64,000 nt of DNA, from the NCBI RefSeq assembly GCF_003355155.1, contig NZ_CP031320.1:7717383-7781382 (forward strand). Direction: 5' to 3'. The notes below the pieces were generated by a model, which worked only from the letters and a program-made list of their open reading frames with translations, was not told where the DNA came from and made no database searches. This stretch comes from Streptomyces armeniacus. Lineage in GTDB: Bacteria > Actinomycetota > Actinomycetes > Streptomycetales > Streptomycetaceae. Positions 3,399 through 35,970 of the stretch are shown here, piece by piece (position 1 is the first letter of the stretch; each line of letters starts with the position of its first letter). The position numbers and the translations under genes are program-made.

Positions 3399-3531
3399 GA
3401 CCGCGATGGTAATTCGGCGCCCCGTGCGGTGTCGCCGCCGGCCGGGGTACCCGTATCCGGCGTGACGGGTGCTGTGCGGTGGTGCTGTGCCGTGCGGTCT
3501 GTGCTGTGCGGTGCCCGTGCCGTGTGTGCGG

Positions 3532-3831
3532 TCAGCGTTTGGACAGGGCCTGTTCGGCGTTGGCCACCCGCCCCGAACGCATAATGCGCAGCACGTGCCC
3601 GTCACAGTTGACGCATGTGGGATTCGTGAGCGGTGAGGGAACTCGGTGGCCTTCCGTGTAATAGGTCACGAAAGGCTTTCCGTCCGGGGGCACGTGGTGC
3701 TCTATGTCGTAGGTCTGCTCCCAGCCGTAACCGCACTTCATACAGGCGAAGCTGTACGCTTCGTGAACGGTTCCGGCGCCTCCGCCGGTGCCACCTGCCG
3801 TGCCTCCGCCAGTGCCGCTGCTGTCCTTCAT
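3532..3831 (-). CDS. Small zinc-ribbon-like protein of unknown function
   Basis: 99 residues. A flexible Gly/Thr-rich N-terminus (about 1-22) leads to a compact domain with two CxxC pairs, CMKCGYGW near residue 30 and CVNCDG near residue 73, which looks like a zinc ribbon. Between them is an acidic and aromatic segment (YDIEHHVPPDGKPFVTYYTE). The ATG at 3831 follows a purine-rich GGGAG site. It lies between rsmI and tatD on the same strand. The family appears conserved in Streptomyces, but I know no assigned role; it could bind nucleic acid or a protein partner. Confidence 0.75.
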   Translation of the reverse strand: MKDSSGTGGGTAGGTGGGAGTVHEAYSFACMKCGYGWEQTYDIEHHVPPDGKPFVTYYTEGHRVPSPLTNPTCVNCDGHVLRIMRSGRVANAEQALSKR

Positions 3832-3975
3832 CCCGGCTCCCTTCCGAGCAGTGGACCCACACCCAGTGGACTCCTCCGCCGGAGAAAACGCAGCTGTCTT
3901 CCGCGCAGTTGGGGCAGATTTGGTCCGGCTATAGGGAATGCGTCCCGCTCTGCGGCTCAGGCTTTACTTTTCACC

Positions 3976-4896: not shown

Positions 4897-4949
4897 ATCC
4901 TCGCAGCGGCAGTCCGCGCGCACCCGGCGCGGTTCCCTACGATGTGCCC

Positions 4950-6797
4950 GTGACGACCAGTGACACCGCCCCGGACGTCGAGCGCGGACGTACGGGCGCG
5001 GGCGACGCGCCCTCCTGGCAGCTGCGGCTGCGCCGGTACGGCTACGTGGCCCGGCCGCGGCCCGGCGTGACGGAGCGGCTGGAGCCGCCGTACGCGCCTC
5101 CCTCGCCGCGGCTGGCGGCGCTGTTCGGCTTCTCGCCGGACGCCGCCGGGCGGTTCGCGCGGTGGGCGGCGTGGGGCGGCCCGGCACTGGTGGCGCTGGT
5201 CGCGGGAGTGCTGCGGTTCTGGCGCCTGGGCTCGCCGCACGCGGTGATATTCGACGAGACGTACTACGCGAAGGACGCCTGGTCGCTCTACCAGCACGGC
5301 TACGAGGGCCACTGGGCGGAGAACGCGAACAAGCTGATCCTCGCCGACCCGCAGAAGATCCCCCTCTCCGACGACCCCTCGTACGTCGTGCACCCTCCGG
5401 CGGGCAAGTGGGTCATCGGGCTCGGGGAGTGGCTGTTCGGGCTCGAACCGTTCGGCTGGCGCTTCATGACCGCCGTGCTCGGGACGCTGTCGGTGTTCCT
5501 GCTGTGCCGCATCGGGCGGCGGCTGTTCCGCTCCACCGTGCTCGGGTGCCTCGCGGGCGCGCTGATGGCGGTGGACGGGCTGCACTACGTGATGAGCCGG
5601 GTAGCGCTGCTCGACCTGGTGCTGATGTTCTGGGTGCTGGCGGCGTTCGGCTGCCTGCTCGTCGACCGGGACAAGGCGCGGGCACGGCTGGCGGCGGCGC
5701 TGCGGAGGGACGCGGAAAGCGAAGCCGTACGGCACTCGACGGACGCACCGTCCGACTCCGTACGGCACTCGGCGGACGCACCGTCCGGGCACGCACCGTC
5801 CGAGGCCGGTCCGGACGCTCCCGGTGAAGAGGCCGCGTCCGGTGTCACTCCGACCCCCGACCCCGGCATCGCCGAGCGGCTCGGCCTCGGCTGGCGCCCC
5901 TGGCGCCTCGCCGCCGGCGTCTGCCTCGGCCTCGCCTGCGCGACGAAGTGGAACGGGCTGTACATCCTCGCCGCGTTCGGCGTGCTCACCGTCCTGTGGG
6001 ACATGGGCGCGCGCCGTACGGCCGGTGCCGGGCGCCCCTTCCTCGCGATGCTCCGCAGGGACGCGCTGCCCGGCTTCGCGTCGCTGGTGCCGGTGGCGCT
6101 CGTCACGTACGTCGCCACCTGGAGCGGCTGGTTCGCCACCCAGGGCGGCTACTTCCGGGACTGGGCCGAGAAGGAGGGCCAGGCAGGTTCCTGGGGCTGG
6201 CTGCCGGGGCCGCTGCGCAGCCTGTGGCACTACGAGTCGGAGGTGTACGACTTCCACGTCGGCCTCACCTCCGGGCACACGTACGAGTCCAACCCGTGGA
6301 GCTGGCTCGTCGTCGGCCGCCCCGTCTCGTACTTCTACGAGTCGCCCAAGAACGGCCAGGACGGCTGCACCGCCGCCGACGGCTGCGCCCGCGAGGTACT
6401 CGCGCTCGGCACGCCGCTGCTGTGGTGGGCTGCCTGCTTCGCGCTGCTGTACGTCCTCTACCGCTGGCTGTTCCGGCGCGACTGGCGCGCGGGCGCCGTC
6501 CTGTGCGGAGTGGCGGCCGGCTATCTGCCCTGGTTCCTCTATCAGGAGCGGACGATCTTCTACTTCTACGCGGTCGTCTTCCTGCCGTTCCTCTGCCTCG
6601 CGCTGACGATGATGATCGGCGCGCTCGCCGGACCGCCCGGCGTGACGGAACGCAGGAGACTCGTCGGAGTCGTCGGCTCCGGCGTTCTGTTCCTGCTGAT
6701 CACGTGGAACTTCATTTATTTCTGGCCCCTTTACACAGGCCAGGCCATCCCCACCGACGACTGGCAGCAACGGATGTGGCTGGACACGTGGATCTGA
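4950..6797 (+). CDS. pmt: Protein O-mannosyltransferase (GT39 family)
   Basis: 616-codon polytopic membrane protein that should transfer mannose from polyprenyl-phosphate-mannose to Ser/Thr of exported proteins on the outer membrane face. The catalytic acidic pair sits in the first extracytoplasmic loop (IFDETYYAKDAWSLYQHGY, about residues 96-114). Some ten hydrophobic segments follow, and the C-terminus ends near TDDWQQRMWLDTWI as in the family. A cytoplasmic linker at about residues 255-300 holds a tandem repeat (RHSTDAPSDSV, RHSADAPSGH) that looks recently expanded. GTG 4950 is preferred; GTG 4944 is two codons upstream. Divergent from rsmI. Confidence 0.93.
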   Translation: MTTSDTAPDVERGRTGAGDAPSWQLRLRRYGYVARPRPGVTERLEPPYAPPSPRLAALFGFSPDAAGRFARWAAWGGPALVALVAGVLRFWRLGSPHAVIFDETYYAKDAWSLYQHGYEGHWAENANKLILADPQKIPLSDDPSYVVHPPAGKWVIGLGEWLFGLEPFGWRFMTAVLGTLSVFLLCRIGRRLFRSTVLGCLAGALMAVDGLHYVMSRVALLDLVLMFWVLAAFGCLLVDRDKARARLAAALRRDAESEAVRHSTDAPSDSVRHSADAPSGHAPSEAGPDAPGEEAASGVTPTPDPGIAERLGLGWRPWRLAAGVCLGLACATKWNGLYILAAFGVLTVLWDMGARRTAGAGRPFLAMLRRDALPGFASLVPVALVTYVATWSGWFATQGGYFRDWAEKEGQAGSWGWLPGPLRSLWHYESEVYDFHVGLTSGHTYESNPWSWLVVGRPVSYFYESPKNGQDGCTAADGCAREVLALGTPLLWWAACFALLYVLYRWLFRRDWRAGAVLCGVAAGYLPWFLYQERTIFYFYAVVFLPFLCLALTMMIGALAGPPGVTERRRLVGVVGSGVLFLLITWNFIYFWPLYTGQAIPTDDWQQRMWLDTWI

Positions 6798-6950
6798 ACA
6801 GCCCCGCGCCCGCCCCGAATTGAGCCATGGAAACTCCGTTTCGAGCCTCGAAAGGGTGACTCCGGGGCACAGGCCGTCACTTCCGTGCTCTATGGTGCCT
6901 CGAGACCCTCGGCCAGGCGGGCGGAGGCGGGGTGGAGGTTCAGAATTCGG

Positions 6951-8675
6951 ATGCGTGACAGCCAGCGGATGGCGGTGCTCGGCGGAGTCGCCGCCGTCGT
7001 CGTGGGAGCCACCGGTTTCGGTGTGTACGCCCTCGTCGGAGGCGAGGAAGAGAACAGCGGCGACAAGGGCAGCGTTTCGGCTGCCGCGGACGGCAAGAAC
7101 TCCGACGAGGTCGAGACGGGGCCGCCGTCCGCCGAGGAGGTCAAGGAAGCCTCCAAGAGCTTCCTCGAGGCGTGGTCCTCGGGCGATGCCCGTAAGGCCG
7201 CCGCCGTCACGGACGACAAGTCCGCCGCGCTCAAGGCGCTGACCGCGCTCCGCAAGGACGCCAAGGTGTCCAAGGTCGCCGTCACCCCGGGCACGCCGCG
7301 TACGCCGGCAGCGACGAAAGCCGATAAGACCGACAAGACAGCCAAGAGTGACAAGGGCGACACGGAGGCCGAAGCCACCGCGTCCGAGGTGCCGTTCAAG
7401 GTCACCGCGCAGCTCGCGTACGGGGAGCGGCGCGACGCGTGGTCGTACGACTCGGCGCTCCAGGTCGTACGGGACAAGAAGACCGGCGACGCCGTCGTCG
7501 GCTGGGAACCGTCCGTGCTGCACCCCAAGCTCGAGGACGGCCAGACGGTGAAGACCGGCGAGGCGGGCACGCCGCCGATCAAGGCCGTCGACCAGAACGG
7601 CACCGAGCTGTCCAAGTCGGACCACCCCTCGCTCAGCGGAATCCTCGACGACCTCCGCAAGCGGTACGGCGCCAAGACGGACGGCACCCCCGGCATCGAG
7701 ACGCGCATCGTCGACGCCAAGGGCAAGGACACCGGGACGACGCTGCGCACCCTGACCAAGGGCACGCCCGGCACCCTCAAGACGACGCTGGACCTGGACG
7801 TGCAGAAGGCCGCAGAGGCGGCCATCGCGGACAAGCCGAAGGCGTCGGTCGTCGCGGTCAAGCCCAGCACCGGCGAGATCCTCGCCGTCGCCAACTCGCC
7901 CGCCAAGGGCTTCAACACGGCGCTCCAGGGCTCGTACGCGCCCGGCTCCACCATGAAGGTCATCACCGGCGCGATGCTGCTGGACAAGGGGCTGGCCGCG
8001 CCGGGCAAGGCGCACCCGTGCCCCAAGTACTTCGAGTACGGCGGCTGGAAGTTCCAGAACGACGACAAGTTCGACATCAAGGGCGGCACGTTCGCGCAGA
8101 GCTTCGCGCGCTCCTGCAACACCGCGTTCATCAGCCAGGCGCCGGAGCTGGACGACGACTCGCTGACCAAGGAGGCCCGCGACGTCTTCGGCATCGGCCT
8201 CAACTGGCAGGTCGGCACGAGCACGTTCGACGGCCAGGTGCCCGTCCAGTCCGACGCGCAGATGGCCGCGTCGCTGATCGGGCAGGGCAGCGTACGGATG
8301 AACCCGCTGACGATGGCGTCCGTGTCGGCGACCGTGAGGTCCGGCGAGTTCAAGCAGCCGTACATCGTGTCGCCGTCGCTCGACGACCGCACCCTCGCGA
8401 AGGCGCCGCGTTCGATGAAGCCGCAGGTGGTCAGTGACCTGCGGGCGTTGATGAAGACGACGGCGACCGGCGGCACCGCAGCCAAGCCGATGGCCGGGCT
8501 GAGCGGCGACTTCGGCGCGAAGACGGGCTCGGCGGAGGTCGGCGGCCAGAAGAAGCCGAACGCGTGGTTCACGGCGTACCGCGACGACATCGCCGTATCG
8601 GCCGTCGTCCCGGCCTCCGGGCACGGCGGCGACTACGCCGGGCCGGTGGTCCGGAAGGTGCTGGACGTCGGCTGA
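6951..8675 (+). CDS. Penicillin-binding transpeptidase with NTF2-like domain
   Basis: 574-residue peptidoglycan DD-transpeptidase anchored by one N-terminal membrane segment (about residues 8-26, MAVLGGVAAVVVGATGFGVY). An NTF2-like MecA_N-type domain follows at about 55-170 with a Lys/Asp/Thr-rich insertion, then a dimerisation-like region and the transpeptidase domain. The three catalytic motifs are present: STMK (PGSTMK, near residue 340), SCN (SCNTAF) and KTG (KTGSAEV). ATG 6951 was chosen because the membrane segment follows directly and GGAGGTT lies upstream. A low-affinity class-B-like PBP for late cross-linking or sporulation septation is the likely role. It stands alone between pmt and ybaK. 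Confidence 0.92.
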   Translation: MRDSQRMAVLGGVAAVVVGATGFGVYALVGGEEENSGDKGSVSAAADGKNSDEVETGPPSAEEVKEASKSFLEAWSSGDARKAAAVTDDKSAALKALTALRKDAKVSKVAVTPGTPRTPAATKADKTDKTAKSDKGDTEAEATASEVPFKVTAQLAYGERRDAWSYDSALQVVRDKKTGDAVVGWEPSVLHPKLEDGQTVKTGEAGTPPIKAVDQNGTELSKSDHPSLSGILDDLRKRYGAKTDGTPGIETRIVDAKGKDTGTTLRTLTKGTPGTLKTTLDLDVQKAAEAAIADKPKASVVAVKPSTGEILAVANSPAKGFNTALQGSYAPGSTMKVITGAMLLDKGLAAPGKAHPCPKYFEYGGWKFQNDDKFDIKGGTFAQSFARSCNTAFISQAPELDDDSLTKEARDVFGIGLNWQVGTSTFDGQVPVQSDAQMAASLIGQGSVRMNPLTMASVSATVRSGEFKQPYIVSPSLDDRTLAKAPRSMKPQVVSDLRALMKTTATGGTAAKPMAGLSGDFGAKTGSAEVGGQKKPNAWFTAYRDDIAVSAVVPASGHGGDYAGPVVRKVLDVG

Positions 8676-8833
8676 CGCGCGCAGCGGCGGGTGTGGCGGG
8701 GCGGAACGGCCGTACGCGGCCGGGCCGCCCCGCTGTTGCGTGTCGGGCGCTGCGCGGCGTGCGCCGCCCGGACGTACGGTCACGGCGGGAAACGCTTCGC
8801 GGCGCCCGTACGCGGGCCGCTAGCGTGACCCGT

Positions 8834-9319
8834 ATGACCTCACCCTCCGCCGCCCACCCCCGGTTCGCCGCCGCACTGTCCGCACTCGGTCTCGACGACG
8901 TCGAGGTCCGCTCCTTCCCGGACGCGACCCGTACGGCCGCCGAGGCCGCTGCCGCGATCGGCTGCGAGCTGAGCCAGATCGTCAAGTCGCTGGTCTTCGA
9001 GGCCGACGGCGTCCCGGTGCTCGTACTGATGGACGGCGCCTCCAGGGTCGACGTGGAGCGGGTACGTGCCGAGCTCGGCGCCGAACGGGTCGGCCGCGCC
9101 GACGCCCGCGTCGTACGCGACGCCACCGGCTACGCGATCGGTGGCGTACCCCCCTTCGGGCACACCACGCAGCTGCGGGTGCTGGCCGACCGCCGCCTGC
9201 TGACGCACGGCACGGTGTGGGCCGCGGCGGGCACGCCGCACACCGTCTTCGCGATCGAGCCGAAGGCGCTGGTCGCGCACGCGGGCGGCACGCTCGCGGA
9301 CGTACGCGAGGCGGGCTGA
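8834..9319 (+). CDS. YbaK/EbsC aminoacyl-tRNA deacylase-domain protein
   Basis: 161 residues with the YbaK/ProX fold: SQIVKSLVFEADG carries the conserved lysine near residue 48, and GYAIGGVPPFGH is the diagnostic substrate-pocket loop, followed by DRRLLTHGTVWAAAGTPHTV. Members remove mischarged amino acids (Cys or Ala) from tRNA-Pro in trans. ATG 8834 opens directly on the family N-terminus. Substrate cannot be read from sequence. The next gene is an EamA permease 180 bp downstream; the stretch between has no gene. Confidence 0.9.
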   Translation: MTSPSAAHPRFAAALSALGLDDVEVRSFPDATRTAAEAAAAIGCELSQIVKSLVFEADGVPVLVLMDGASRVDVERVRAELGAERVGRADARVVRDATGYAIGGVPPFGHTTQLRVLADRRLLTHGTVWAAAGTPHTVFAIEPKALVAHAGGTLADVREAG

Positions 9320-9500
9320 GCGCGCCGGCCGCCGCCGCGCGCGCGGCGCGGCCGACGCCACACACGGGAGGCGACGTGCGTACGAACGTGCTCCGCGCGC
9401 GCGGAGGCGCCGCCGTTGCATACGGCGTCGCATACGGCAGCGCTTCCGGTGCGCACGGTGGTGTCTCCGGTGCGCGCGGCGGTGCCGTACGGGTGTCACT

Positions 9501-10427
9501 GTGACGCCGCTGGTCGCCGCCGCCGTGCTGGCCGCCGCGGTGACGCACGCCGGGTGGAACGCGATCGCGCACGGCATCAAGGACCAGCTCGTCGCCTTCT
9601 CCCTGATCGGCGCCGCCGACCTGGTGTGCGGCGCGGCGGTCGCGGCGTACGCCCCGCTGCCCGCCGCGGGCGCCTGGCCGTACCTCATCGCCTCCGTACT
9701 GCTGCACATCGGCTACCAGGCGCTGCTGATGCGCTCGTTCCGGCTGGGCGACTTCGGGCAGGTCTACCCGATCGCACGCGGCACGGCGCCGCTCGCGGTG
9801 ACGGTCCTCGCGCTGGTCTTCGTCCACGAACGCCCCGGCCTGTGGCAGACGACGGGCGTCGCGGTGGCCTCCGCCGGTCTGGTCGGAGTGGCGCTGTGGG
9901 GCATACGGGGGCGCGCGGGCGACGTCCGTACGGGTGCCGATCCGGGCGCCGATCCGGGTGCCAATCCGGGTGCCGAGGCCGGTGCCCGCGCCGCCGCCAG
10001 GCCGCAGACGGCCGCGCTGCTCGCGGCCGTCGGCACAGGCCTGGCCATCGCCTCGTACACGGTGGTGGACGGCATGGGCGTACGCGCCTCCGGTTCCGCG
10101 CTCGGCTACACCGGCTGGCTCGTCGCCCTGATGGGCCCGTGCATCCCGCTGTACGCGCTCGCCGTCCGCCGCCGCGCGCTGCTCGCCCAACTCCGCCCGG
10201 TGGCCTGGAGGGGCCTGCTCGGCGGGGCGCTGTCCACGGCGGCGTACGGGCTGGTGCTGTGGGCCCAGACCCGCGCCCCGCTCGCACCGGTCGCGGCGCT
10301 GCGCGAGACGTCGGTCATCGCGGGGGCGGCGATCGGCGCGCTGTTCTTCAAGGAACGCTTCGGCGCCCCCCGCATCGCCGCCTCGGCGGTCCTGGCGCTG
10401 GGCATCGCCCTGATGCTCACAACCTGA
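9501..10427 (+). CDS. EamA/DMT-superfamily permease
   Basis: 308-residue integral membrane protein with ten hydrophobic segments in two EamA repeats. The first repeat opens THAGWNAIAHG; the second ends in SVIAGAAIGALFFKERFGAP, the usual DMT closing motif with a positively charged KERFG. The central loop (about residues 145-165) is a tandem ADPG/ANPG repeat encoded by near-identical 12-bp units at about 9937-9975. Family members export amino acids, nucleosides or metabolites; substrate unknown. GTG 9501 is chosen as it starts the first membrane helix. Confidence 0.88.
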   Translation: MTPLVAAAVLAAAVTHAGWNAIAHGIKDQLVAFSLIGAADLVCGAAVAAYAPLPAAGAWPYLIASVLLHIGYQALLMRSFRLGDFGQVYPIARGTAPLAVTVLALVFVHERPGLWQTTGVAVASAGLVGVALWGIRGRAGDVRTGADPGADPGANPGAEAGARAAARPQTAALLAAVGTGLAIASYTVVDGMGVRASGSALGYTGWLVALMGPCIPLYALAVRRRALLAQLRPVAWRGLLGGALSTAAYGLVLWAQTRAPLAPVAALRETSVIAGAAIGALFFKERFGAPRIAASAVLALGIALMLTT

Positions 10428-10788
10428 CCCCACCCGCCCCCCACCGCGGGCGCCACGGCAACGCCGGGCGACCCGACATGCCGTACCGCACGGCGGTCCC
10501 GAAGAGGCCGCCGGCCCGGACGCGCCCCGGATAGAGGCTCGGCGCCGCGACCGCACTGCTCCACCAGGTGACCGTAGTGGGCTCGCGGTCCCGCGACGTG
10601 GCCAGCGCGGTCACGCCGTACCTGGAGCGCGGCGGCTAGTGGGACGCGGACTGCCTCCTCGAAGGGATGGGCGGCGGACGTGTCCTGGCGCTTCCTGCGT
10701 CGCCACTGAGGTGGCCCATGTTCCGCTGTTGAACACGTCTGGGTCGCCGCCCGTGTAGCTCTCCGCGCCGAGCCGCAGCACCTGCGCG
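10428..10788. other. Intergenic stretch with possible gene remnants
   Basis: No complete gene is recognisable. On the minus strand a frame from ATG 10895 down through 10611 gives a plausible protein-like N-terminus (MLLTTTTPVPAGIDRFDRER, then VKRHFGDDGELP and DPDVFNSG) that decays into low-complexity sequence after about 60 residues. I do not recognise it. A stop-rich segment at about 10640-10735 separates it from the EamA side. This may be a decayed gene or another unmarked join. Confidence 0.4.
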
Positions 10789-12941: not shown

Positions 12942-13027
12942 GGGGTTGGGGCGCGTCCGCTGTGGCGAGGTGGTCGCATGGTGAGACGGTCATTCTCAGG
13001 ATGCGGGATCGTCGTTAGCGTGGCCGC

Positions 13028-13858
13028 ATGTCCGACAACACGCAGGGCGCCGTATACACGCACGGCCATCACGACTCCGTGCTCCGCTCGCACCGTTGGC
13101 GTACCGCCGCGAATTCCGCCGCGTATCTGCTGCCCGAGCTGCGTGCCGGGCAGGCCGTGCTGGACGTGGGGTGCGGGCCCGGGTCCGTGACCGTGGATCT
13201 CGGGCGGGCGGTCGCGCCCGGCGGGCAGGTCACCGGCGTGGACGCCGCCGAGGCGGTCCTCGGCCAGGCCCGCGCCCTCGCGGCCGAACGCGGGCTGGAC
13301 AACGTCCGGTTCGCCCCCGCCGACGTGCACGCGCTCGGCTTTCCCGACGGCTCCTTCGATGTCGTCCACGCGCATCAGCTGCTGCAGCACGTCGGCGACC
13401 CGGTGGGCGCACTGCGCGAGATGCGCCGGGTGTGCGCGCCGGGCGGGGTCGTGGCCGTACGGGACTCGGACTACGCCGGGATGACCTGGTACCCGCGGAT
13501 CCCCGCCCTGGACGACTGGCTCGACCTCTACGAGCGCGTCGCCCGCGGCAACGGCGGCGAGCCCGACGCGGGCCGCCGACTGCACGTGTGGGCGCGCCGC
13601 GCCGGCTTCGCGCCGGAGGACGTCACCGCGACGTCCAGCACCTGGTGCTTCAACTCCCCCAAGGACCGCGCCTGGTGGAGCGGCCTGTGGGCGGAGCGTA
13701 CGGTCGCGTCCGGTTACGCGCGGCTCGCCGTGGCGGGCGGTCACGCCACCGAGGCCGAGCTGCACCGGATCGCGGACGGCTGGCGGGAGTGGGGCGCGGA
13801 CGGCGACGGCTGGTTCTCCGTCCTGCACGGCGAGATCCTCTGCCGGGTGGGGGCGTAA
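13028..13858 (+). CDS. SAM-dependent methyltransferase (UbiE/COQ5-like)
   Basis: 276-residue class I methyltransferase. Motif I is VLDVGCGPGSVTVDL (about residues 42-56), the acidic ribose-binding residue follows in VTGVDAAEAV, then FAPADVHALGF and FDVVHAHQLLQHV (motif II region) and REMRRVCAPGGVVAVRDSDY. The C-terminal half (WYPRIPALDDWLDLYERVAR) is the substrate part and matches unassigned Streptomyces small-molecule methyltransferases. ATG 13028 is chosen for its fit with the family N-terminus. No neighbour indicates the substrate; the genes around it are a TetR regulator and a sortase-like gene on the other strand. Confidence 0.9.
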   Translation: MSDNTQGAVYTHGHHDSVLRSHRWRTAANSAAYLLPELRAGQAVLDVGCGPGSVTVDLGRAVAPGGQVTGVDAAEAVLGQARALAAERGLDNVRFAPADVHALGFPDGSFDVVHAHQLLQHVGDPVGALREMRRVCAPGGVVAVRDSDYAGMTWYPRIPALDDWLDLYERVARGNGGEPDAGRRLHVWARRAGFAPEDVTATSSTWCFNSPKDRAWWSGLWAERTVASGYARLAVAGGHATEAELHRIADGWREWGADGDGWFSVLHGEILCRVGA

Positions 13859-15679: not shown

Positions 15680-15702
15680 CGCCACCCGTACAGGGCGCGC
15701 CG

Positions 15703-17361
15703 CTACTTCGTCTCCAGGTCGCGCCGCCGGAAGCCCGCCAGCCCCAGCGCCACCAGCGCCGCGGCCAGCGCGGTGAGGATCAGCACCGGTGTCCAGCGCA
15801 TCGACTCCGCGGGCAGCGCCGGGACGTGCCCGAAGGGGGAGATGTTGTTCATCCAGCCCGGGAAGTCCAGGATCTTGCCGAGGTAGCCGACGACGAACGC
15901 GTATACGGGCAGCACCCACGACGCCACCGTCGCCCGCGGCAGCCAGCCGAAGAGCACCGCCGCGACGCCGACCGTCACCCACAGCGCGGGCGCGTACGCG
16001 AGCGGCGCGACCAGCAGGTCGAGGAAGAACCCGGCGTCGCCCGTGGCCGCCGCGCCCGCCGCCCCGAAGCCGAGCCCGGCCAGGGCCAGCACCACGACGC
16101 CGCCGAGCATCGCGACGGTCAGGTGCGCGCCCGCCCAGCGGCTCCGGGACAGGCCGGTGGCCAGCAGCGGTTCGGCGCGCCCCGAGGTCTCCTCGGACTG
16201 CGGGCGGAGCGCCGCCATCACCGCGTACACGGCGGCGACGACCGCGAGCACGATCATCACGGTGGACGCGAACGACTCGGCGACGTTAGCGCCGCCGACC
16301 TTCTGTACGGCCTCCCTGAGCTCCTTGACGTCCTCGATCATGTCCTCGGCGTCGCCGAGGATCGAGCCGTACATCACGCTCAGGAGCAGCAGCCCGGCGC
16401 CGAATCCGGCGAGCATGCCGCGGTGGAGCCGTACGGCGAGGCCCAGCGGACGGGCCAGCGCGTCGGATGCCACCGGGCTGCCCAGCCGGGTCGCGCGCAG
16501 GCCGGCGCCGACGTCGCGGCGGGTGCTCAGCCGGTACGCCACCGCCGTCGTCGCGGCGGCCAGGGCCAGCGCGAGGAGCAGCGGCCACCAGCGGTCGTCG
16601 ACGTACACGTACGTGCGCTGCGCCCAGCCGATCGGGGACAGCCAGCTCAGTGCGCCGTTGCCGACGTCGCCGGAGGCGCGCAGCGCGTACGCCGCCCCGA
16701 TCACGGCGAGCGCCATGCCGGACGCGCCCCGCGAGAACTGGCTGATCTGCACGGTGATCCCGGCGACCGCCGCGAAGACGAGGCCGACGGCGGCGTGCGC
16801 GGCGCCGTACAGCAGCGAACCGCCCCAGGTGACGTCCTCCGTACCGGAGGCGCCGAGGCCGACGGCGATGAGCAGCGCCAGTACGGCGTTGGCGACCGCC
16901 GCCGTCCCCAGGGCGGCCGTCAGGTGCGCGTGCCGCCCGACGACGGCGGCGCGTACGAGTTCGGCGCGGCCGGTCTCCTCCTCCGTACGGGTGTGCCGGG
17001 TGACCGTCAGGACGCTCATCAGGCCGACCATGATGAGGACGAAGCCCAGCATCTGGTGGCCCAGCATGGCGCCGTAGTTGTAGTCGTCCAGGTAGCGGGC
17101 GGGGCCCGTCATGGCGAGGCCGGCCGGGCTGTCCATCGTCTCGCCGACGGACTTCCGGTCGGCGGGCTCCGGGTACTGCGACGTGAAGCTCGACAGGGTG
17201 CCGACCGTGCCGAGGAAGAGGGCGCCGATCCAGACGGGCAGCCGTACGCGGTCGCGCCGCAGGTTGAACCGCAGCAGCGTGCCCGTACCGGTGAGCGCGT
17301 GGCGCTCGCGTGCCTCCGCGCGCGCGGGCGGCGATTTGCGGGCGGCGGCGGTGGCGGTCAT
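15703..17361 (-). CDS. ABC-2 type exporter permease, two-repeat form
   Basis: 552 residues, about 12 membrane segments arranged as two homologous halves of six, as in large Streptomyces exporter permeases. Each half contains an [21 protein letters not shown] motif: [17 protein letters not shown] near residue 130 and [19 protein letters not shown] near residue 390, which is the cytoplasmic coupling segment. The start ATG overlaps the ATPase stop (ATGA), so the pair is one operon. The substrate is unknown; with a divergent GbsR/MarR gene, export of a drug-like compound is a reasonable guess. Confidence 0.9.
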
Positions 17362-18419
17362 CGCCCGCCTCCGGAGGACTTGCGGGTGTCCGTGGCCGCC
17401 GGGCCGTCGCCGTCGCCGCTGTCACTGCCGCTGCCACTTCCCGGGGAGCTGTTTTCGCTCCCTGGGGAGCCGTTTCCGGCGCCGACGACGTCGCCCTGGT
17501 CGTCCACGGCCACGCCGTTCGCGTCGAGGGCGTCGCCGTAGTGGCGCAGCATCAGCTCCTCCAGCGTCGGCGGGTGGCTGACCAGGCTGCGGACGCCGCT
17601 GTCGAGGAGGGTGCGCACCGCGCGGTCCAGCTGCGGTCCGTCGACGGCGAAGTGCACGCGGCCGTCCGTACGGCGCACGTTGTGCACCCCTTCGAGCTCG
17701 TCGAGGCCGGTGACGGGGCGCTCGGTCTCGGCCTCGATGGTCGTACGGGTCAGGTGCCGCAGCTCGGTCAGCGTCCCGGACTGCACGACCCGGCCGAGCC
17801 GTACGATGCTCACCCGGTCGCACAGCTTCTCGACCTGGGCCAGGATGTGGCTGGACAGCAGCACCGTCTTCCCCGCGGCCTTGGCCTGCTGGATGACGTC
17901 CTGGAAGACGACCTCCATCAGCGGGTCGAGCCCGGCGGTGGGCTCGTCGAGGAGCAGCAGTTCGGCGTCCGAGGCGAGCGCGGCGACGATGGCGACCTTC
18001 TGCCGGTTGCCCTTGGAGTAGGTGCGGCCCTTCTTGGTCGGGTCCAGGTCGAAGCGCTCGAGCAGCTCGGCACGGCGTCCCTGGTCGAGGCCGCCGCGCA
18101 GCCGGGCGAGCAGGTCGATGGCCTCGCCGCCGGTGAGATTGGGCCAGAGCTCAACGTCGCCCGGCACGTACGCGAGCCGGCGGTGCAGCTCGACCGCGTC
18201 GTACCAGGGGTCGCCGCCGAGCACGCTCGCGGCGCCCGAGTCGGCGCGCAGCAGACCGAGCAGGACGCGCAGGGTGGTGGACTTTCCGGCGCCGTTGGGC
18301 CCGAGGAATCCGTGCACCTCGCCGGTCCCGACGCGCAGGTCGAGTCCGTCGAGCGCGCGGGTTCGGCCGAAGGACTTCGTCAGTCCGGATACCGAGATGG
18401 CAGTGGTGGCCTTGGTCAT
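17358..18419 (-). CDS. ABC exporter ATP-binding protein
   Basis: 353 residues. Walker [10 protein letters not shown] (about residues 38-46), Q-loop, signature [18 protein letters not shown], Walker [14 protein letters not shown] and the switch histidine in [13 protein letters not shown] are all present, so it should be a working ATPase. A C-terminal extension of about 100 residues ends in a Gly/Ser/Asp-rich tail. The ATG at 18419 lies about 7 bases after a good -10 sequence, so the message may be leaderless. It is co-transcribed with the permease downstream and divergent from a GbsR/MarR regulator. Confidence 0.93.
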
Positions 18420-18426
18420 GAGGCCG

Positions 18427-18474
18427 AAGCTACGCTTCCTTCAGAAATTTGTGAAGTTAAGGAAGCGTTAGGAT
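18427..18474. promoter_or_regulatory. Shared operator and divergent promoters, ABC exporter / GbsR
   Basis: A perfect 10-bp inverted repeat, ACGCTTCCTT (18432-18441) and AAGGAAGCGT (18459-18468), with an inner TTCA/TGAA pair, fills the gap. On the minus strand TTCACA (18455-18450) and TAGCTT (18432-18427) are spaced 17 bp, a good sigma-70 promoter for the exporter. On the plus strand TAGGAT (18469-18474) is a fair -10. A dimer bound here would cover the exporter -35. Confidence 0.75.
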
Positions 18475-18508
18475 CATCCGGGTACGCGTGAACTGGGGAG
18501 ATGCTGAA

Positions 18509-19027
18509 GTGGTGGGTGAACAGGACAGCCAGGGTCGGCGGACAGAGGACTACGACGACCGCGTCTCCCAGTTCGTCGAACGCTTCGCCGGAGACCTCAC
18601 CGAGGCGGGCATGCAGCGCATGGCCGCCCGCGTGTTCGCGTGCCTCCTCGCCTCCGAGCGCGGCGCGCTGAGCTCCGCCGAGCTCTCCGAACGGCTCCAG
18701 TGCAGCCCGGCCGCCGTCTCCGGCGCCGTCCGCTACCTTTCGCAGGTGCACATGATCAGCCGGGAGCGGGAACCCGGCTCACGCCGCGAGAGCTACCGGC
18801 TGCACCAGGACATCTGGTACGAGACGTTCACCAATCGCGACGCCCTCCTCAGCCGCTGGACGGCCACACTGCGCTCGGGCGCCGAGTCCCTCGGCACGGA
18901 CACTCCCGCGGGACGGCGCGTGCAGGAGACCACCGAGTTCTTCGACTACCTCAAGGACGAGCTCGGCAGCCTGCTGGAACGCTGGCGCAAAGACCACGAG
19001 GACGGGCCCTACCCGTCCCGGGACTGA
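18509..19027 (+). CDS. GbsR/MarR-family transcriptional regulator
   Basis: 172 residues with a winged helix at about 35-95 (ACLLASERGALSSAELSERL, then CSPAAVSGAVRYLSQVHMI and EREPGSRRESYRL for the wing). The C-terminal helices (TEFFDYLKDELGSLLERW) should form the dimer. GTG 18509 is preferred: GGGGAG at 18495-18500 gives an 8-base spacing; GTG 18488 is seven codons upstream without a site. Its position head to head with an ABC exporter, with an inverted repeat between, makes it the likely repressor of that exporter. It ends 35 bp before an adapter-marked join. Confidence 0.88.
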   Translation: MVGEQDSQGRRTEDYDDRVSQFVERFAGDLTEAGMQRMAARVFACLLASERGALSSAELSERLQCSPAAVSGAVRYLSQVHMISREREPGSRRESYRLHQDIWYETFTNRDALLSRWTATLRSGAESLGTDTPAGRRVQETTEFFDYLKDELGSLLERWRKDHEDGPYPSRD

Positions 19028-19062
19028 GCCCGGCCGTACGCCCCGCCCCGCCCGGCCGGCCC

Positions 19063-19090
19063 CTTATACACATCTGCCGCTGCCGCCGCA
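19063..19090. other. Sequencing-adapter sequence (Nextera type) at a contig join
   Basis: CTTATACACATCTG at 19063-19076 is an exact match to part of the Tn5 mosaic end CTGTCTCTTATACACATCT and the following adapter base. The continuation CCGCTGCCGCCG matches the read-1 adapter tail ACGCTGCCGACG except for two A-to-C changes. It separates a regulator gene block from the middle of an NRPS A domain. Natural DNA would not be expected to hold this order. Confidence 0.9.
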
Positions 19091-19104
19091 GGCGTAGCGG
19101 AAGC

Positions 19105-24977
<5,873 letters not shown>

Positions 24978-24981
<4 letters not shown>

Positions 24982-25199
24982 CGAACCCGTTCGAGAACCC
25001 CGAGGGCAGCTACTCCGTGCTCGTCAACGACGAGGGCCAGCACAGCCTGTGGCCCGACTTCGCCGACGTCCCCGCGGGCTGGACCCCCGTACACGGGCCC
25101 GGCCCGCGCCAGGACTGCCTCGACTACATCGAGGCCCACTGGACCGACCTGCGGCCCCGGAGCCTGGCCGGCGGCCGGCCGGGTCCGTCCGCCGGCTGA
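24978..25199 (+). CDS. MbtH-like NRPS accessory protein
   Basis: 73 residues with the family signature: [29 protein letters not shown] and the invariant tryptophans, ending near [15 protein letters not shown]. MbtH proteins bind adenylation domains and are needed for their folding or activity. The ATG overlaps the NRPS stop (ATGA), so it is coupled to the upstream synthetase and probably serves its A domains. Usual length. Confidence 0.96.
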
Positions 25200-25327
25200 G
25201 GGCGGGCCTCCGCTACTGCGGAGTACGGGATTCCGGATGTCCCCCTCCAGGGGGGTGAACTACGGGGACGGCGGACGTACGGTGGGAGCACAGCCTGTCC
25301 GTGGCGTGACATCCCAGGTCGAAGGGG

Positions 25328-25738
25328 ATGGTCTCGATGTACGACGCGATCGGAATCGAGGTCCGGCCCACCGCCTCCGGCGACTGCCGGGTGACCGTGG
25401 CGGGAGAGCTCGACGTGTGCAGCGCGCCTGCCGTACGCACCGCTCTCCGCGATGCCGTCAGCAGACACGACAGGGTCGAGGTCGACTGCGCGGGCCTCCG
25501 CTTCTGCGACTGCGCGGGGCTCAGCGCGCTGCAGTCCGCCGCCCACGCGGCCCGGACCGCCGGCACCGAACTGCGGCTGTACGCGGTCCCGCAGGCGCTC
25601 GCGCGGCTGCTGCGGCACTTCCGCATCGAGGGCGTGTCGGTCGCCGGACAGCCACCGCCCGGCGCGCGTCCCGACGTGCCGCCCAGCCGCCGTACACGCG
25701 ACCCGACGGCGACGCCCGCGACCGCCCTGCTGCGGTAG
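25328..25738 (+). CDS. STAS-domain protein (anti-anti-sigma factor type)
   Basis: 136 residues. The STAS fold covers about 1-105: VTVAGELDVCSAPAVRTALR, VEVDCAGLRFCDCAGLSALQ and RLYAVPQALARLLRHFRI. In classical antagonists the motif DxxxxxFxDSSG carries a phosphorylatable Ser; here it reads DCAGLRFCDCAGL, with Cys in place of the first Ser, so regulation by Ser phosphorylation is doubtful. The tail is Pro/Arg/Thr-rich. ATG 25328 or ATG 25337 may be used. It follows MbtH by 128 bp but no functional link to the NRPS is evident. Confidence 0.85.
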   Translation: MVSMYDAIGIEVRPTASGDCRVTVAGELDVCSAPAVRTALRDAVSRHDRVEVDCAGLRFCDCAGLSALQSAAHAARTAGTELRLYAVPQALARLLRHFRIEGVSVAGQPPPGARPDVPPSRRTRDPTATPATALLR

Positions 25739-25879
25739 CGGCCCCGCGGCCGCCCCCGCGGCTGTCAGCCCGCCGCCCCCGATGTCGTGTGCCCGCCCGT
25801 TTGACGGAAACCCCTACGGTGCCGGCGGCACCGCCGCCGGCCGGTCCTGGTTCCGACCCGGGAAGGGCAGGCGTCACGG

Positions 25880-27193
25880 TTGTCTGTGCCGGATGTGGTG
25901 TACGTCGTGCTGGGCTGTGGCGCGCTGGCGGCCGCCGTCCTGCCGCGAGTGGTCTCCGGGCGGCCGCTGTCGCTGCCGCTGGTGTTCCTGCTCGGCGGCC
26001 TGCTGGTGTACCTCCTGAACGTGCCACTCCCCGAGGTCGACCCGGTGGAACAGCGGGTCTGGGTACTGCACACCACGGAGCTGTGCGTCATCGTCTCGCT
26101 GATGGGCGCCGGCCTGGCGATCAACCGCCCCTTCGGGCGGCGGACCTGGTCCTCCACCGGCCGCCTGCTCGGCATCGCCCTGCCGCTGACCGTTGCCGCC
26201 ACCGCCGTCTCCGCCTGGCTGCTGCTCGGCTGGCCGCCGGCCGCGGCGCTGCTGCTGGCGGCCGTACTGGCGCCGACCGACCCCGTGCTCGCCGCCGAGG
26301 TACGGGTCGGGGAGCCCACGGACTCCGCGCACGACGAGGACGAGGTCCGCTTCTCCCTCACCAGCGAGGCCGGCCTGAACGACGGGCTGGCCTTCCCCGT
26401 CGTCTACGCGGCCCTCGCACTCGCCGCGGCGGCCGGCGGCGGCTGGTCCGCGTCCTGGATCGGCGAGTGGGCGCTGGTCGACCTGGCGTACAAGTCCGGC
26501 ATCGGCGTGGTGGTGGGCCTGCTGGTCGGCCGCCTGCTGGGGCGGATGTTCTTCCGCTCCCGGTGGCCGGCGCTGCGGCTGTCCGAGTACCGGGAGGGGT
26601 TCGTCGCGCTCGGCGCGACCTTCCTCTCGTACGGGGCCGCGGAGCTGCTGCACGGCTACGGCTTCCTGGCCGTCTTCGCCACCGCCTGCAGCATCCGGGC
26701 CGCCGAGCGCTCGCACGGCTACCACCTCGTGCTGCACGAGTTCATCGAGCAGGTCGAGCGGCTGTTCACGGCATCCCTGCTGTTCCTCCTGGGCGGCTAC
26801 GTCGCGCTCGGCGGCCTGTCGGAGCTCACCTGGCAGGGCGCCGCTGTCGGGCTGCTCCTGCTGCTGGTGATCAGGCCGGCCGCCGGCTGGGCCGCCCTGC
26901 CGGGCAGCCCGGGCGGACCACGTGAGCGCGTCGCGACCGCCGTCTTCGGCATCCGCGGCATCGCCTCGCTGTTCTACGTCGCCTACGCGCTGAGCCAGGA
27001 CGACTTCTCCGGGCTCGGCCCGGAGCTCTGGGCCGTGGTCACCTTCACCGTGCTGAGCTCCGTCGTCCTGCACGGCATCGCGGCCTCCCCGGTGATCAGC
27101 CGCCTCGACTGGCTGCGCCAACGGCGCGCCCGCCGCGCGGGGCGCACCCGCCCCGACCCGGGGGACGGCGGCGCGCCGGACGAACGCCTCTGA
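25880..27193 (+). CDS. Na+/H+ antiporter, CPA1/NhaP type
   Basis: 437 residues with about 12 membrane helices. Diagnostic motifs are LAPTDPVLAAEVRVGEP (the TDP unwound helix) and SLTSEAGLNDGLAFPVVYA (the ND pair that binds the ion), followed by ATAVFGIRGIASLFYVAYAL near the end. It should exchange protons for Na+ or K+ at the cytoplasmic membrane. The start is TTG 25880 with a purine-rich site 8-9 bases before, or GTG 25886. The basic C-terminus is short, with no regulatory domain. The next 50 bp lead into an NRPS scrap, so its downstream context is not trustworthy. Confidence 0.9.
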   Translation: MSVPDVVYVVLGCGALAAAVLPRVVSGRPLSLPLVFLLGGLLVYLLNVPLPEVDPVEQRVWVLHTTELCVIVSLMGAGLAINRPFGRRTWSSTGRLLGIALPLTVAATAVSAWLLLGWPPAAALLLAAVLAPTDPVLAAEVRVGEPTDSAHDEDEVRFSLTSEAGLNDGLAFPVVYAALALAAAAGGGWSASWIGEWALVDLAYKSGIGVVVGLLVGRLLGRMFFRSRWPALRLSEYREGFVALGATFLSYGAAELLHGYGFLAVFATACSIRAAERSHGYHLVLHEFIEQVERLFTASLLFLLGGYVALGGLSELTWQGAAVGLLLLLVIRPAAGWAALPGSPGGPRERVATAVFGIRGIASLFYVAYALSQDDFSGLGPELWAVVTFTVLSSVVLHGIAASPVISRLDWLRQRRARRAGRTRPDPGDGGAPDERL

Positions 27194-27244
27194 GGGGCGG
27201 GGCGCGGCGCCGGAGGCGCCCTGCGCCGGTCCCACGGCGCCCCG

Positions 27245-27478
27245 GACCGCACCGCGTACGGGGGCACCGGCCTGTCAGCGGGGGCCGTACGCGCCCTGCG
27301 CGCCCAGGTCGCGGCGGTGCCGGAACTGGCCGCGCGGGTGGAGCTGCGCGCGCAGCAAGCGCACGACACGACGGGCCTGCCGGAGGGCTGGTTCGACACA
27401 GTCGTGCTCAACTCCGTCGCCCAGTACTTCCCGGGCCCCGGCTACCTCACGGACGTGCTCCGCGCCGTCTCCGGACTA
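27245..27478 (+). pseudogene. Fragment of an NRPS N-methyltransferase domain
   Basis: In frame the stretch reads GGTGLSAGAVRALRAQVAAV, PELAARVELRAQQAHDTTGL, then FDTVVLNSVAQYFPGPGYLT and DVLRAVSGL. This is the core of the SAM-dependent N-methyltransferase domain inserted between motifs A8 and A9 of NRPS adenylation domains (FDTVVLNSV-QYFP is diagnostic). Both sides are missing: upstream is non-NRPS DNA after the antiporter stop, downstream the frame stops at 27478 where LAPGG should follow. It is a chopped piece, most likely another join. The bases at its right edge (CTAAGAGACCG, 27474-27484) resemble the end of the Tn5 mosaic end. Confidence 0.8.
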
Positions 27479-27530
27479 CGAGAGAGGTTTCCCTAAGAGA
27501 CCGCACCGGCACCTCTGGTGGTAACCCCGT

Positions 27531-28529
27531 ATGTCTCCTGCCCTCCCCCGCCCGGACCAAGGCCCGGGCTCCCGCTACACCGCCCGCGCGACGACCACAC
27601 GCCGCCGCCCGCCAACTGTCGTACGGCGGAGGGACGTCGCCGCGCTGGCCAGTCGCCTCACCCCTCGCGATACGTGGCTCGCGGCTATGGTCCACGAGCA
27701 CCGTGTCCTGACCACCCCTCAGATCGGCCGCATCGCGTTCGGGGCGTCCCGCACCGCGCAAAACCGCCTGCGCGCTCTGCACCGCATGGCCGTCCTCGAC
27801 TCCTTCCGCCCGCTCGTCCAGACCGGCTCCGCACCGGAGCACTACACGCTGGGGCCGGCCGGCGCAGCCCTGCTCGCCGCCCACGCCGGAGTGGAGACCG
27901 CAGCGCTGGGCTGGCGCCCCACCCACACCGGACGCATTGCCTACTCCCCCTGGCTCGGCCACGACCTCGGCGTCAACGACCTCCTCACCCGCCTCACCGC
28001 ACGGGGCCGCGACGCCCCGCACGCCGGACTGCCGTTGTGGCTCTCCGAGAACTCCTGCGCCCGACGCTGGGGCGACATCGTCCGGCCCGACGCCTACGCC
28101 CACTGGAGCGACCACGGCGCGCTGCTCCCGTTCTTCCTCGAGTACGACACCGGCAGCCAACCCCTCGCCCGCGTCGACGCGAAACTGCCCGCCTACGCCG
28201 CCTTCACCGCCGCCACCCACGCCCGCCCCGCACTCCTCATCCACACCCGTACCGCCTCCCGCGAAGCCGCCCTACGGCGTCGCCTCACAGAGACCGCGCG
28301 CCAACTCGCCCTGCCCGTGGCGACCGCCTCGGCCGACTTCACCACCACCAGCCCATGGGGCAACTGGTGGACCCCGCTGACCACCACCACACCCCGACTC
28401 ACCCTGGCCGAACTCGCCGCCCACTGGCCCGACCTGAGCCCCGCCCCTGGGCTGGAACCCACCGACGCCGACACCCCGCTCACGCTCCCCGTGCCCCCGC
28501 TCGCACCACCCGCACAGGGACGGGTGTGA
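27531..28529 (+). CDS. Replication-relaxation family protein
   Basis: 332 residues of the Replic_Relax family. An N-terminal winged-helix region (TPRDTWLAAMVHEHRVLTTP, then RIAFGASRTAQNRLRALHRM) precedes the conserved body with HTLGPAG-like YTLGPAGAALLAA, LGHDLGVNDLLTRL, and RPDAYAHWSDHG, ending with the FFLEYDTGSQPL acidic motif. These residues (GHDLGVN, RPDAY, EYDTG) resemble a restriction-endonuclease-like metal site. Such proteins are encoded on plasmids and conjugative elements and are thought to aid relaxation at the origin; the mechanism is not established. ATG 27531 follows a GG-rich leader; the stop overlaps the next GTG. Confidence 0.88.
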   Translation: MSPALPRPDQGPGSRYTARATTTRRRPPTVVRRRDVAALASRLTPRDTWLAAMVHEHRVLTTPQIGRIAFGASRTAQNRLRALHRMAVLDSFRPLVQTGSAPEHYTLGPAGAALLAAHAGVETAALGWRPTHTGRIAYSPWLGHDLGVNDLLTRLTARGRDAPHAGLPLWLSENSCARRWGDIVRPDAYAHWSDHGALLPFFLEYDTGSQPLARVDAKLPAYAAFTAATHARPALLIHTRTASREAALRRRLTETARQLALPVATASADFTTTSPWGNWWTPLTTTTPRLTLAELAAHWPDLSPAPGLEPTDADTPLTLPVPPLAPPAQGRV

Positions 28530-29449
28530 GCACGTTCGCCAGGATCGGCACCGGCCTCGGCTGCTCGCTCGTCGCGCTCACCCTCTTGTCCGCCGTGCTC
28601 GCCACCGGCCTGCCGCCCGACCTCACCTCCACCGCAGGCGGTACGGAAGCGCCCAGCCGCCACGCCCGCAAGGACATCCCCGGCCCCTACCTCGCGCTCT
28701 ACCGACGCGCCGAACCCGAGTGCCCCGGCCTGTCCTGGACGGTCCTGGCCGCCATCGGAAAGGTCGAGACCGACCACGGCCGACACCCCACCATGCGCTC
28801 CCCGGCAGGCGCACTCGGACCGATGCAGTTCCTCCCGTCCACCTTCCGCGAGTACGCCCACCCCGTCCCGCCCGGCGGCAAAAAACCCGCCACTCCCTGG
28901 GACCCCGTCGACGCGGTGTTCGCCGCCGCACGGCTGCTGTGCGCGAACGGCGCGAAGCACGGAAAGAACCTCGAACGCGCCATCTGGCACTACAACCACG
29001 CCGACTGGTACGTCCGCAAAGTCCTGCGCATCGCCGACTCCTACACCACTACCCAACCCGCCTCCGGCGCGGCCGAGACCGCCCTCGCCTTCGCCCGCTC
29101 CCAACTCGGCACCCGCTACGTATGGGGCGGCAACGGCGCGAAGGACGGCGGCTTCGACTGCTCGGGCCTGACCAAGGCCGCCTACCAGGCAGCCGGAATC
29201 AATCTCCCGCGGACCGCGGAAGCGCAGTACGACGCCACGGTCGAAGTCCCGCGCGGGCAGCCCCTCAAGCCCGGCGACCTCCTCTTCTACGGCCGCCCCG
29301 GCAACCTCCACCACGTCGGCCTCTACGCCGGGAAGGGCCGGATGATCCACGCACCCCGCCCCGGCACCCGCATCCGCTACGAGGCCCACCGCTACCGGGG
29401 CCACGACTTCTACGCCGCCACCCGCCCCACCGCCCGGAGCCACCGGTGA
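28526..29449 (+). CDS. Bifunctional lytic transglycosylase / NlpC-P60 endopeptidase
   Basis: 307 residues, exported. N-terminal hydrophobic signal (about 8-30), then an SLT-like lytic transglycosylase domain (about 55-165) with catalytic Glu in AIGKVETDHGRH, GALGPMQFLPSTFREYA and AIWHYNHADWYV. The C-terminal NlpC/P60 domain (about 185-305) has the catalytic Cys in GGFDCSGLTKAAY, His in LHHVGLYAGKGRMIHAP, and YVWGG. It cleaves both glycan strands and stem peptides to open a local hole in the wall for the transfer apparatus. It is coupled to the preceding and following genes by 4-bp overlaps (GTGA). Confidence 0.93.
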   Translation: MSTFARIGTGLGCSLVALTLLSAVLATGLPPDLTSTAGGTEAPSRHARKDIPGPYLALYRRAEPECPGLSWTVLAAIGKVETDHGRHPTMRSPAGALGPMQFLPSTFREYAHPVPPGGKKPATPWDPVDAVFAAARLLCANGAKHGKNLERAIWHYNHADWYVRKVLRIADSYTTTQPASGAAETALAFARSQLGTRYVWGGNGAKDGGFDCSGLTKAAYQAAGINLPRTAEAQYDATVEVPRGQPLKPGDLLFYGRPGNLHHVGLYAGKGRMIHAPRPGTRIRYEAHRYRGHDFYAATRPTARSHR

Positions 29450-30201
29450 ACCCTCCGGCAGCCGAGATCGAAAAGCTGCTGCACCGCCTGACCATCCTGC
29501 TGTGCGCCGTCGGTGTCCTCGCCCTGACCTTCACCGCGGTCAACGTGACCCTCTTCGCCTCAAGTCGAGACGTGCCCCTGCCGATCGCAGTCCTGCTCGA
29601 TCCGATGCTCGCCCTCACCCTGACCGCCGTCCTGTACGCGGACTCCCGGCTCGCCGCCTGGGGCCTGCGCCCGCCCACCTGGTCCACAGCACTGCGCTGG
29701 TGGGCCGGCGCCACCGCCGCCGTCATGAACACCTGGGCCTCACTCTGGCCGGACGGCCACATCGGCTGGCCCCACCAAGCCGACCCCGCAGCCGTACTCC
29801 TCCACCTCGCCCCCTGCCTCCTCCTCGTCGGCCTCGCCGAAGCGATCGCCGCCTACCGCAGACTCCTCACCGAGACACGCAACCCCAACCCACAGCCCGT
29901 AACCGCACCCCGCCCGGAACCACCCCCACGATCTGTCGAACCACCACTGCACCCCGCACCTCACACCGCACCCGGAGGCGACCTCACCCGCGACGACGAA
30001 CTACTCCTCCGCGCCCACGCCCTCGACGCCGCCGTACGCACGCGCACCGGACACCCCGTCAGCATCCGAGAGCTACGACGCCAACTGCACCTCGGACAGG
30101 ACCGCGCCCGAGCACTGCGCACCCGACTCGACGCGGCGCTCCCCGACGACGCCACCGCACCCGACCCGCACCCGGAAACCTCTCTTGACCAGGGACGATA
30201 G
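29446..30201 (+). CDS. DUF2637/SpdB-like membrane protein with C-terminal HTH
   Basis: 251 residues. Four hydrophobic segments occupy about 10-130 (LTILLCAVGVLALTFTAVNV; AVLLDPMLALTLTAVLYADS; ALRWWAGATAAVMNTWASLW; VLLHLAPCLLLVGLAEAIAA), the arrangement of DUF2637 proteins. A Pro-rich linker then leads to a cytoplasmic helix-turn-helix-like end (VSIRELRRQLHLGQDRARAL). Related proteins in Streptomyces plasmids are spread or transfer genes. GTG 29446 overlaps the previous stop. Role in intramycelial spread is inferred from family and position. Confidence 0.8.
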   Translation: MNPPAAEIEKLLHRLTILLCAVGVLALTFTAVNVTLFASSRDVPLPIAVLLDPMLALTLTAVLYADSRLAAWGLRPPTWSTALRWWAGATAAVMNTWASLWPDGHIGWPHQADPAAVLLHLAPCLLLVGLAEAIAAYRRLLTETRNPNPQPVTAPRPEPPPRSVEPPLHPAPHTAPGGDLTRDDELLLRAHALDAAVRTRTGHPVSIRELRRQLHLGQDRARALRTRLDAALPDDATAPDPHPETSLDQGR

Positions 30202-31390: not shown

Positions 31391-31813
31391 GTGGGGGACG
31401 GCAAGGAAGTACTGGATATATCCACCAAGGATCTGAAGTCGGCTGCGCCGACGTTCCGGACCCAGAGCGGTGAACTGCTCAAAGCCGCCACGACGTTGGG
31501 GGCGAAGCTCGATGCGCTGGGGCAGCCGTGGGGCGGGGAGGAGCAGGTCAAGGAGTTCGCCGAGAAGTACACGGCGCAGCGTTCGTCCATCGAGAGCGCG
31601 GTGTCGGTTCTTGTTCAGGGGCTGGCGAGTATTCACGCGGCGATGGCGGATATGTCCGATGGGCACGTGGACAACGAGGACGCGATCCGAGGCATGTTCA
31701 ACAGGCAGGAGACGCCGGACTGGCTGCCGTCTCAGCGGGAGTGGCATCCGCCGATGGCGGCGCCGCAGGCGCAGGCGCCTGGTCCGTCTGAGGGTTCTGG
31801 TCCGACCGGCTGA
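31391..31813 (+). CDS. WXG100-like protein
   Basis: 140 residues; about 1-105 form two long amphipathic helices separated by a PWGG turn (LGAKLDALGQPWGGEEQVKE), the shape of ESX/WXG100 substrates in which WxG is often replaced. The C-terminus is a Pro/Gln-rich tail. GTG 31391 follows AGGGGATG. The stop codon overlaps the ATG of the Rhs gene by one base, so the two are made together. Such small proteins partner large toxin proteins for type VII export. Confidence 0.8.
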   Translation: MGDGKEVLDISTKDLKSAAPTFRTQSGELLKAATTLGAKLDALGQPWGGEEQVKEFAEKYTAQRSSIESAVSVLVQGLASIHAAMADMSDGHVDNEDAIRGMFNRQETPDWLPSQREWHPPMAAPQAQAPGPSEGSGPTG

Positions 31814-35963: not shown

Positions 35964-35970
35964 TGCCTCG

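Follow-up and report, generated by a model that had tools for sequence, protein, structure and literature searches.

A read-through Nextera adapter inside a single-contig Streptomyces genome marks a join between pieces most likely concatenated in order of length

Concatenated drafts, or pseudo-chromosomes, in which one record is made from many contigs, are a known practice, and k = 127 de Bruijn graphs yield contigs that share ends of k bases. Drafts can also carry the Nextera read-through adapter at their contig ends; of 392 genomes sampled from the genus (the present genome, G000, included), 38 contain a mosaic end with no more than one mismatch, which makes untrimmed adapter at contig ends a common feature of drafts. 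In the other drafts of the genus, among the matches listed, the reverse copies lie mostly within 132 bases of a contig start and the forward copies far inside, which we take to be near the far contig end. Reverse mosaic ends were also seen deep inside long contigs at G245:C22:48965-48983 and G341:C245:638750-638768, which are possible further false joins. Here we analysed a stretch of 64,000 nucleotides (the window), bases 7717383-7781382 of a single contig of 8,083,249 bases. Its adapter copies are like those of the drafts in sequence and orientation, but they are internal, lying inside one contig because contigs were joined, on the reading set out below. The pieces share k-base ends as the contigs of a SPAdes-like k = 127 assembler do, but are shown as one uninterrupted sequence; and the record, like a pseudo-chromosome, holds many contigs, but their order follows length instead of a reference and no N spacers separate them at the window joins. 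No published description of the record was found among the matches listed, and a mate-pair-scaffolded Nocardiopsis genome (PMC5477326) is unrelated to it.

An error-rich Nextera read-through adapter occupies positions 19057-19097 of the window on the forward strand (CGGCCCCTTATACACATCTGCCGCTGCCGCCGCAGGCGTAG), with the mosaic end at 19057-19075, the i5-side tail at 19076-19089, and the index at 19090-19097. Thirty-four of the 41 bases equal what we take to be the Nextera read-through template (mosaic end, i5-side tail, and index) with its 8-base i5 index, compared with a maximum of 26 of 41 anywhere in the window for shuffled templates, and none of 500 shuffles equalled 34. The initial annotation had read exact adapter or Tn5 mosaic-end sequence here, and this identity stands: CTTATACACATCTG is exact at 19063-19076, and the core 13-mer CTTATACACATCT has its sole site of the window here within 2 mismatches, with a chance expectation of 0.03. 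At 19057, where the alignment of the 19-base mosaic end begins, CGGCCC stands in place of CTGTCT. The 12 bases after the exact core, CCGCTGCCGCCG, differ from the adapter letters, presumably ACGCTGCCGACG, by the two A-to-C changes that had been claimed, and the thirteenth and fourteenth bases add one more. All seven mismatches of 19057-19097 to the adapter replace A or T with C or G. The index AGGCGTAG directly follows the tail at 19090-19097 and is 1 base off AGGCTTAG, the index that fits the other copies best; in these the fifth base is near-even (T 31, C 28, n = 73). Beyond the index, a spacer of six bases remains before the next piece (19098-19103, forward strand), three of which match the start of the P5 sequence by eye; P5 or P7 sequence is present in many other copies of the genome. 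The 28 bases first reported are the better-preserved portion of a longer feature: the core and the tail had been read correctly, but the size had not, since the feature covers 19057-19097 with the index. The adapter is real sequence of the record, but on this evidence it is no part of the organism; it is an artefact, not biology.

The mosaic end occurs within 3 mismatches at 92 places of the genome (41 forward and 51 reverse), with 0 for the reversed-pattern control, and the i5-side and i7-side adapter stretches occur at 49 and 13 places, respectively, with 0 for each reversed pattern. The copies were analysed in the last 400 kb and in sixty 4-kb stretches centred on listed sites, where 95 copies scored at least 24; a few listed three-mismatch places (for example 2232532, 2417686, 3518152, and 5384407) fall outside this set. 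They mismatch the adapter at 517 of 3,156 letters (10 of these being N), most commonly by T>C (124), A>C (95), and T>G (59); because the copies were chosen at a score of at least 24, the true mismatch rate exceeds this value. Mismatches of this kind would be produced by error-rich read tails. The majority letters after the i5-side adapter are AGGC, T or C, TAG, and then the P5 sequence GTGTAGATCTCGG, and those after the i7-side adapter are GGAC, C or T, CCT; the copies continue into P5/P7 sequence, and many reach poly-A. Of 17 candidate i5 indexes, the one that we take to be S508 gives by far the best fit (189 mismatches over 73 copies; next 359), and among 10 candidate i7 indexes, presumably N705 fits best (74 mismatches over 21 copies; next 121), both candidate sets being those assumed by us. 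The individual copies are noisy, with an exact S508 in 6 of 74 i5-side copies; the window copy, which was excluded from the i5 fit, has 1 mismatch to S508 and 4 to the next best index. The copies have a single noisy index pair in common, which points to one library. In all 14 pairs of neighbouring copies less than 400 bases apart, a forward copy is followed by a reverse copy, the order expected if the forward copy closes one contig and the reverse copy opens the next.

The last 400 kb of the contig contain 174 exact repeats of at least 40 bases, of which 61 measure 127-131 bases (33 of 127, 16 of 128, 5 of 129, 5 of 130, and 2 of 131), while all the lengths of 100-120 bases together account for 7. 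This spike at 127-131 bases lies at the inferred piece ends, which share k-base overlaps. Over the same 400 kb, the spacing of the places with evidence falls from an initial 9.0 kb to roughly 0.5 kb towards the end; missing boundaries show as multiples, and repeat copies that are off a piece end account for some smaller gaps. When repeat ends alone are used in the last 43 kb, the longest non-increasing chain of lengths (6 bases of tolerance, boundary skipping allowed) has 22 steps and closes with 524, 493, 483, 422, 420, 382, 370, 339, 311, and 307 bases; 100 shuffles of the gaps gave a maximum of 15 and a mean of 9.5. Across the whole contig, the rank correlation of gap with order is -0.88 over 81 distinct adapter places. 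A first, greedy spacing test gave 58 violations of 82 against a shuffled mean of 65.4 (minimum 4) and no separation; being uninformative, it was replaced by a model of non-increasing piece length, with a tolerance of 3% plus 250 bases that was picked after the spacing had been seen. The observed order is accommodated by 283 pieces (285 to 534 when the first gap is divided into two to five), whereas none of 2,000 shuffles needed fewer than 4,677. Piece lengths that never rise along the record are thus what the chain test and the piece-count model returned, and the greedy version gave no signal. Some N runs occur between joins, six of them (47 to 4,334 bases) in the last 400 kb and none inside the window. 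N runs also lie in or beside some adapter places, a part of which may therefore sit in scaffold gaps and not at sorted joins.

We infer about eight joins in the window. At 2254|2255, a join without adapter, a 128-base repeat ends at 2254, and the relatives' matches cover 13-2252 and restart at 2480 elsewhere. The piece that starts at 2255 is headed by two direct 127-base copies, 2255-2381 and 2517-2643 (99.2% identical). A further join probably lies within 10418-10726, its exact place not found, where the relatives' matches end at 10417 and resume elsewhere at 10727; the length order predicts 10679 or later, and no adapter-like sequence was found at 10418-10726. To the right of the 19 kb adapter, a weak adapter-like stretch at 27472-27503 (reverse strand) is near the join place predicted by the length order, and at 35698|35699, without adapter, an RHS gene stops and a 128-base repeat begins at 35699. 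A corrupted adapter at 43566-43600 (reverse strand) heads a PKS piece and contains the ATG of the PKS ORF (43582), another at 51283-51322 (reverse strand) follows a 131-base repeat that ends at 51283, with the join placed at 51283|51284, and at 58892|58893 two 127-base repeated words abut with no adapter and nothing between them. The RHS-repeat protein of 31813-35698, truncated by the join, has DUF6531 and a WXG100-like N-terminus. The stretch 58731-58892 is repeated at 8042157-8042318 (99.4%) and 8069083-8069226 and by eye is like an insertion sequence end. In gapped alignments, the numbers of 2,000 random window stretches that score as high as the adapter are 2 for the site at 19 kb, 16 at 51 kb, 22 at 43 kb, and 199 at 27 kb; the score of 27 points at 19 kb equals the background maximum, so the 2 matches are probably the site itself. 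At the remaining four join places, no adapter score exceeded the background of the 2,000 stretches. The piece lengths from 19104 onward, taken by hand, are about 8.37, 8.22, 7.86, 7.72, 7.61, and 7.41 kb. The long mechanical ORFs that run over joins, at 18640-24981, 31813-37266, and 43582-51321, are chimeras.

The left piece at 19 kb ends with the ABC-2-type membrane protein of an exporter (15703-17361, reverse strand; PF12698 at 25.3 bits, under the curated cut-off of 31.6), the exporter ATPase (17358-18419, reverse strand; PF00005), and a MarR-type regulator (18488-19027, forward strand). The regulator is complete with a stop codon, in agreement with its first description as an intact gene. 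The start of the NRPS gene (19111-24981, forward strand), in which condensation, AMP-binding, and carrier domains are each represented by two stretches, is removed by the join; the gene had been described as beginning in the middle of an A-domain, and we read the same, since the start of the frame appears by eye as mid adenylation domain and the best condensation-domain match runs from residue 371. An MbtH-like protein (24978-25199, forward strand) follows in the NRPS piece. The first 127 bases of this piece (19104-19230, forward strand) are repeated exactly at 8073970-8074096 (reversed), and 19102-19230 equals 8078032-8078160 exactly over 129 bases. Over the longer stretch 19102-19692, the identity to 8078032-8078622 is 95.8%, and this near-identical A-domain fragment may explain the assembly break at the NRPS start. 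A 71-base word of the piece start has three occurrences in the genome, and a genome-wide search with it for the missing NRPS start or the true left neighbour found neither: the other two copies are one end of a piece of ~254 bases and the head of another short piece, and neither resembles the incoming neighbour.

The gene order in relatives was compared on both sides of the joins. In three complete genomes of the genus, G007, G015, and G013, the block 13-2252 maps to 7.82, 5.78, and 6.27 Mb and the block 2480-10417 to about 1.07, 3.26, and 3.79 Mb, respectively, so that the two are megabases apart in all three; adjacent pieces are far apart in relatives at the joins 2254|2255 and 10418-10726. 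The exporter-regulator block 15702-19001 maps to 9.77 Mb in G007. Loci were pulled in by the exporter ATPase (the best 80 of 217 relatives, mostly Streptomyces), and in 75 of these 80 the regulator is beside the ATPase, with 69 of the 75 extending more than 1.5 kb past the regulator. The exporter-MarR pair at 15703-19027 is a widespread actinomycete unit by this count. In the same best 80 loci, the NRPS has one match near the exporter ATPase, of 28% identity and on the far side, and none of six relatives' loci matches 19002-30000 beside the regulator (matches of more than 120 bases, with 4-10 kb past the regulator compared). No counterpart of the NRPS was placed in the relatives, where the best matches are A-domain paralogues of 69-73% identity. 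Searched separately, the exporter/MarR and NRPS pieces were found joined in none of the relatives compared, and the NRPS itself was placed in none of them. Because blocks within one inferred piece also map apart (13026-13849 from 15702-19001, and 35699-35928 from 38613-42761), the gene order supports the joins without proving them alone.

The stretch at 19 kb is almost certainly a read-through adapter tailing one short-read contig, with the contigs joined longest first into the 8.08-Mb sequence. At this site and along the contig we see an adapter with a shared index, the 127-base overlap signature, and shrinking spacing, together with the relatives' gene order at two neighbouring joins. A draft assembly of about 283 or more pieces, concatenated in order of length, is the most likely origin because of the shared index pair, the k = 127 overlaps, and the spacing that shrinks along the whole contig. 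Where a DNA fragment was shorter than the read length, sequencing would have run on into the Nextera adapter and index of that fragment. The error-rich read tail, the probable source of the mismatches, would have been left untrimmed, and a k = 127 de Bruijn assembler, presumably SPAdes-like, would have kept it on a contig end. The contigs would then have been strung together from the longest to the shortest into one sequence with no N at the window joins, by a concatenation that may have been deliberate or scripted. The MarR/exporter piece would run to 19056, with the adapter to about 19103, and the NRPS piece would begin at 19104; the one precedes the other only because they are adjacent in length. 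The chimeric contig proposed by the initial annotation is borne out by the adapter with its shared index, the 127-base overlaps, and the falling piece lengths (283 against at least 4,677 pieces). The false join before the NRPS is confirmed, but its extent had been understated, with about eight joins in the window and a contig that behaves as a concatenation throughout. Since the pieces look glued in length order, the genes that flank the 19 kb adapter should not be taken for true neighbours, and the earlier advice stands: no link should be drawn between the NRPS piece and the piece with the ABC exporter and MarR gene.

A correctly ordered scaffold with a misfilled gap would instead keep the exporter and the NRPS as true neighbours, with the NRPS start replaced by adapter. 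The N runs or the two face-to-face adapters at some adapter places are as in half-filled gaps, but the adapter places track the falling piece lengths across the whole contig, the single NRPS match in the best 80 of 217 loci is of 28% identity and on the far side, none of the six relatives' loci matches 19002-30000 beside the regulator, and two neighbouring window joins fail the gene-order comparison, which makes a misfilled gap very improbable. Even less credible is a genuine Tn5-type insertion that left a scar in the organism: the mosaic end is a recognition sequence of the Tn5 transposase, but what comes after it is the library tail and index and no transposon, and the paired copies less than 400 bases apart leave no room for one. 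Chance resemblance in GC-rich DNA, which could supply the six of 41 bases ahead of the exact core and several tail bases that are G or C, has a negligible probability given the 13-mer expectation of 0.03 at 2 mismatches, the 0 of 500 shuffled templates, and the reversed patterns absent genome-wide. All three were rejected on this evidence, in favour of the concatenation of adapter-tailed contigs by length.

A second candidate, G012, came from the adapter sign. This single contig of 9,034,319 bases from the same genus contains 162 mosaic-end copies within 3 mismatches (74 forward and 88 reverse; control 1). Its last 394 kb include exact repeats of 127 bases (12) and 128 bases (8) among 77, and 51 adapter copies scoring at least 24, with 0 forward-reverse pairs within 400 bases at this threshold. 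Both genomes are single contigs with adapters and a 127-base spike, but their index pairs differ: that of G012 is about TC[CT]AC[CT]C[CT] and TAGGC[CA][TC]G, and these indexes may be S504 and N706.

The completeness of 100 and contamination of 0.31 of the present genome give no flag for concatenation. An internal adapter, a repeat-length spike at k, and a falling boundary spacing form a simple screen for false single-contig genomes. It seems somewhat probable that Streptomyces-like genomes of one Nextera plate were turned, as a batch, into length-sorted pseudo-chromosomes that are now single-contig species representatives, and that more exist than the present genome and G012, the latter on weaker evidence. 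In the present record, the false exporter-NRPS cluster is eliminated, and readings of synteny, operons, and gene clusters are valid only within one piece, about 7-8 kb in the window. If such a batch exists, the gene clusters, operons, and gene-order claims that cross the hidden joins of its genomes would be chimeric.
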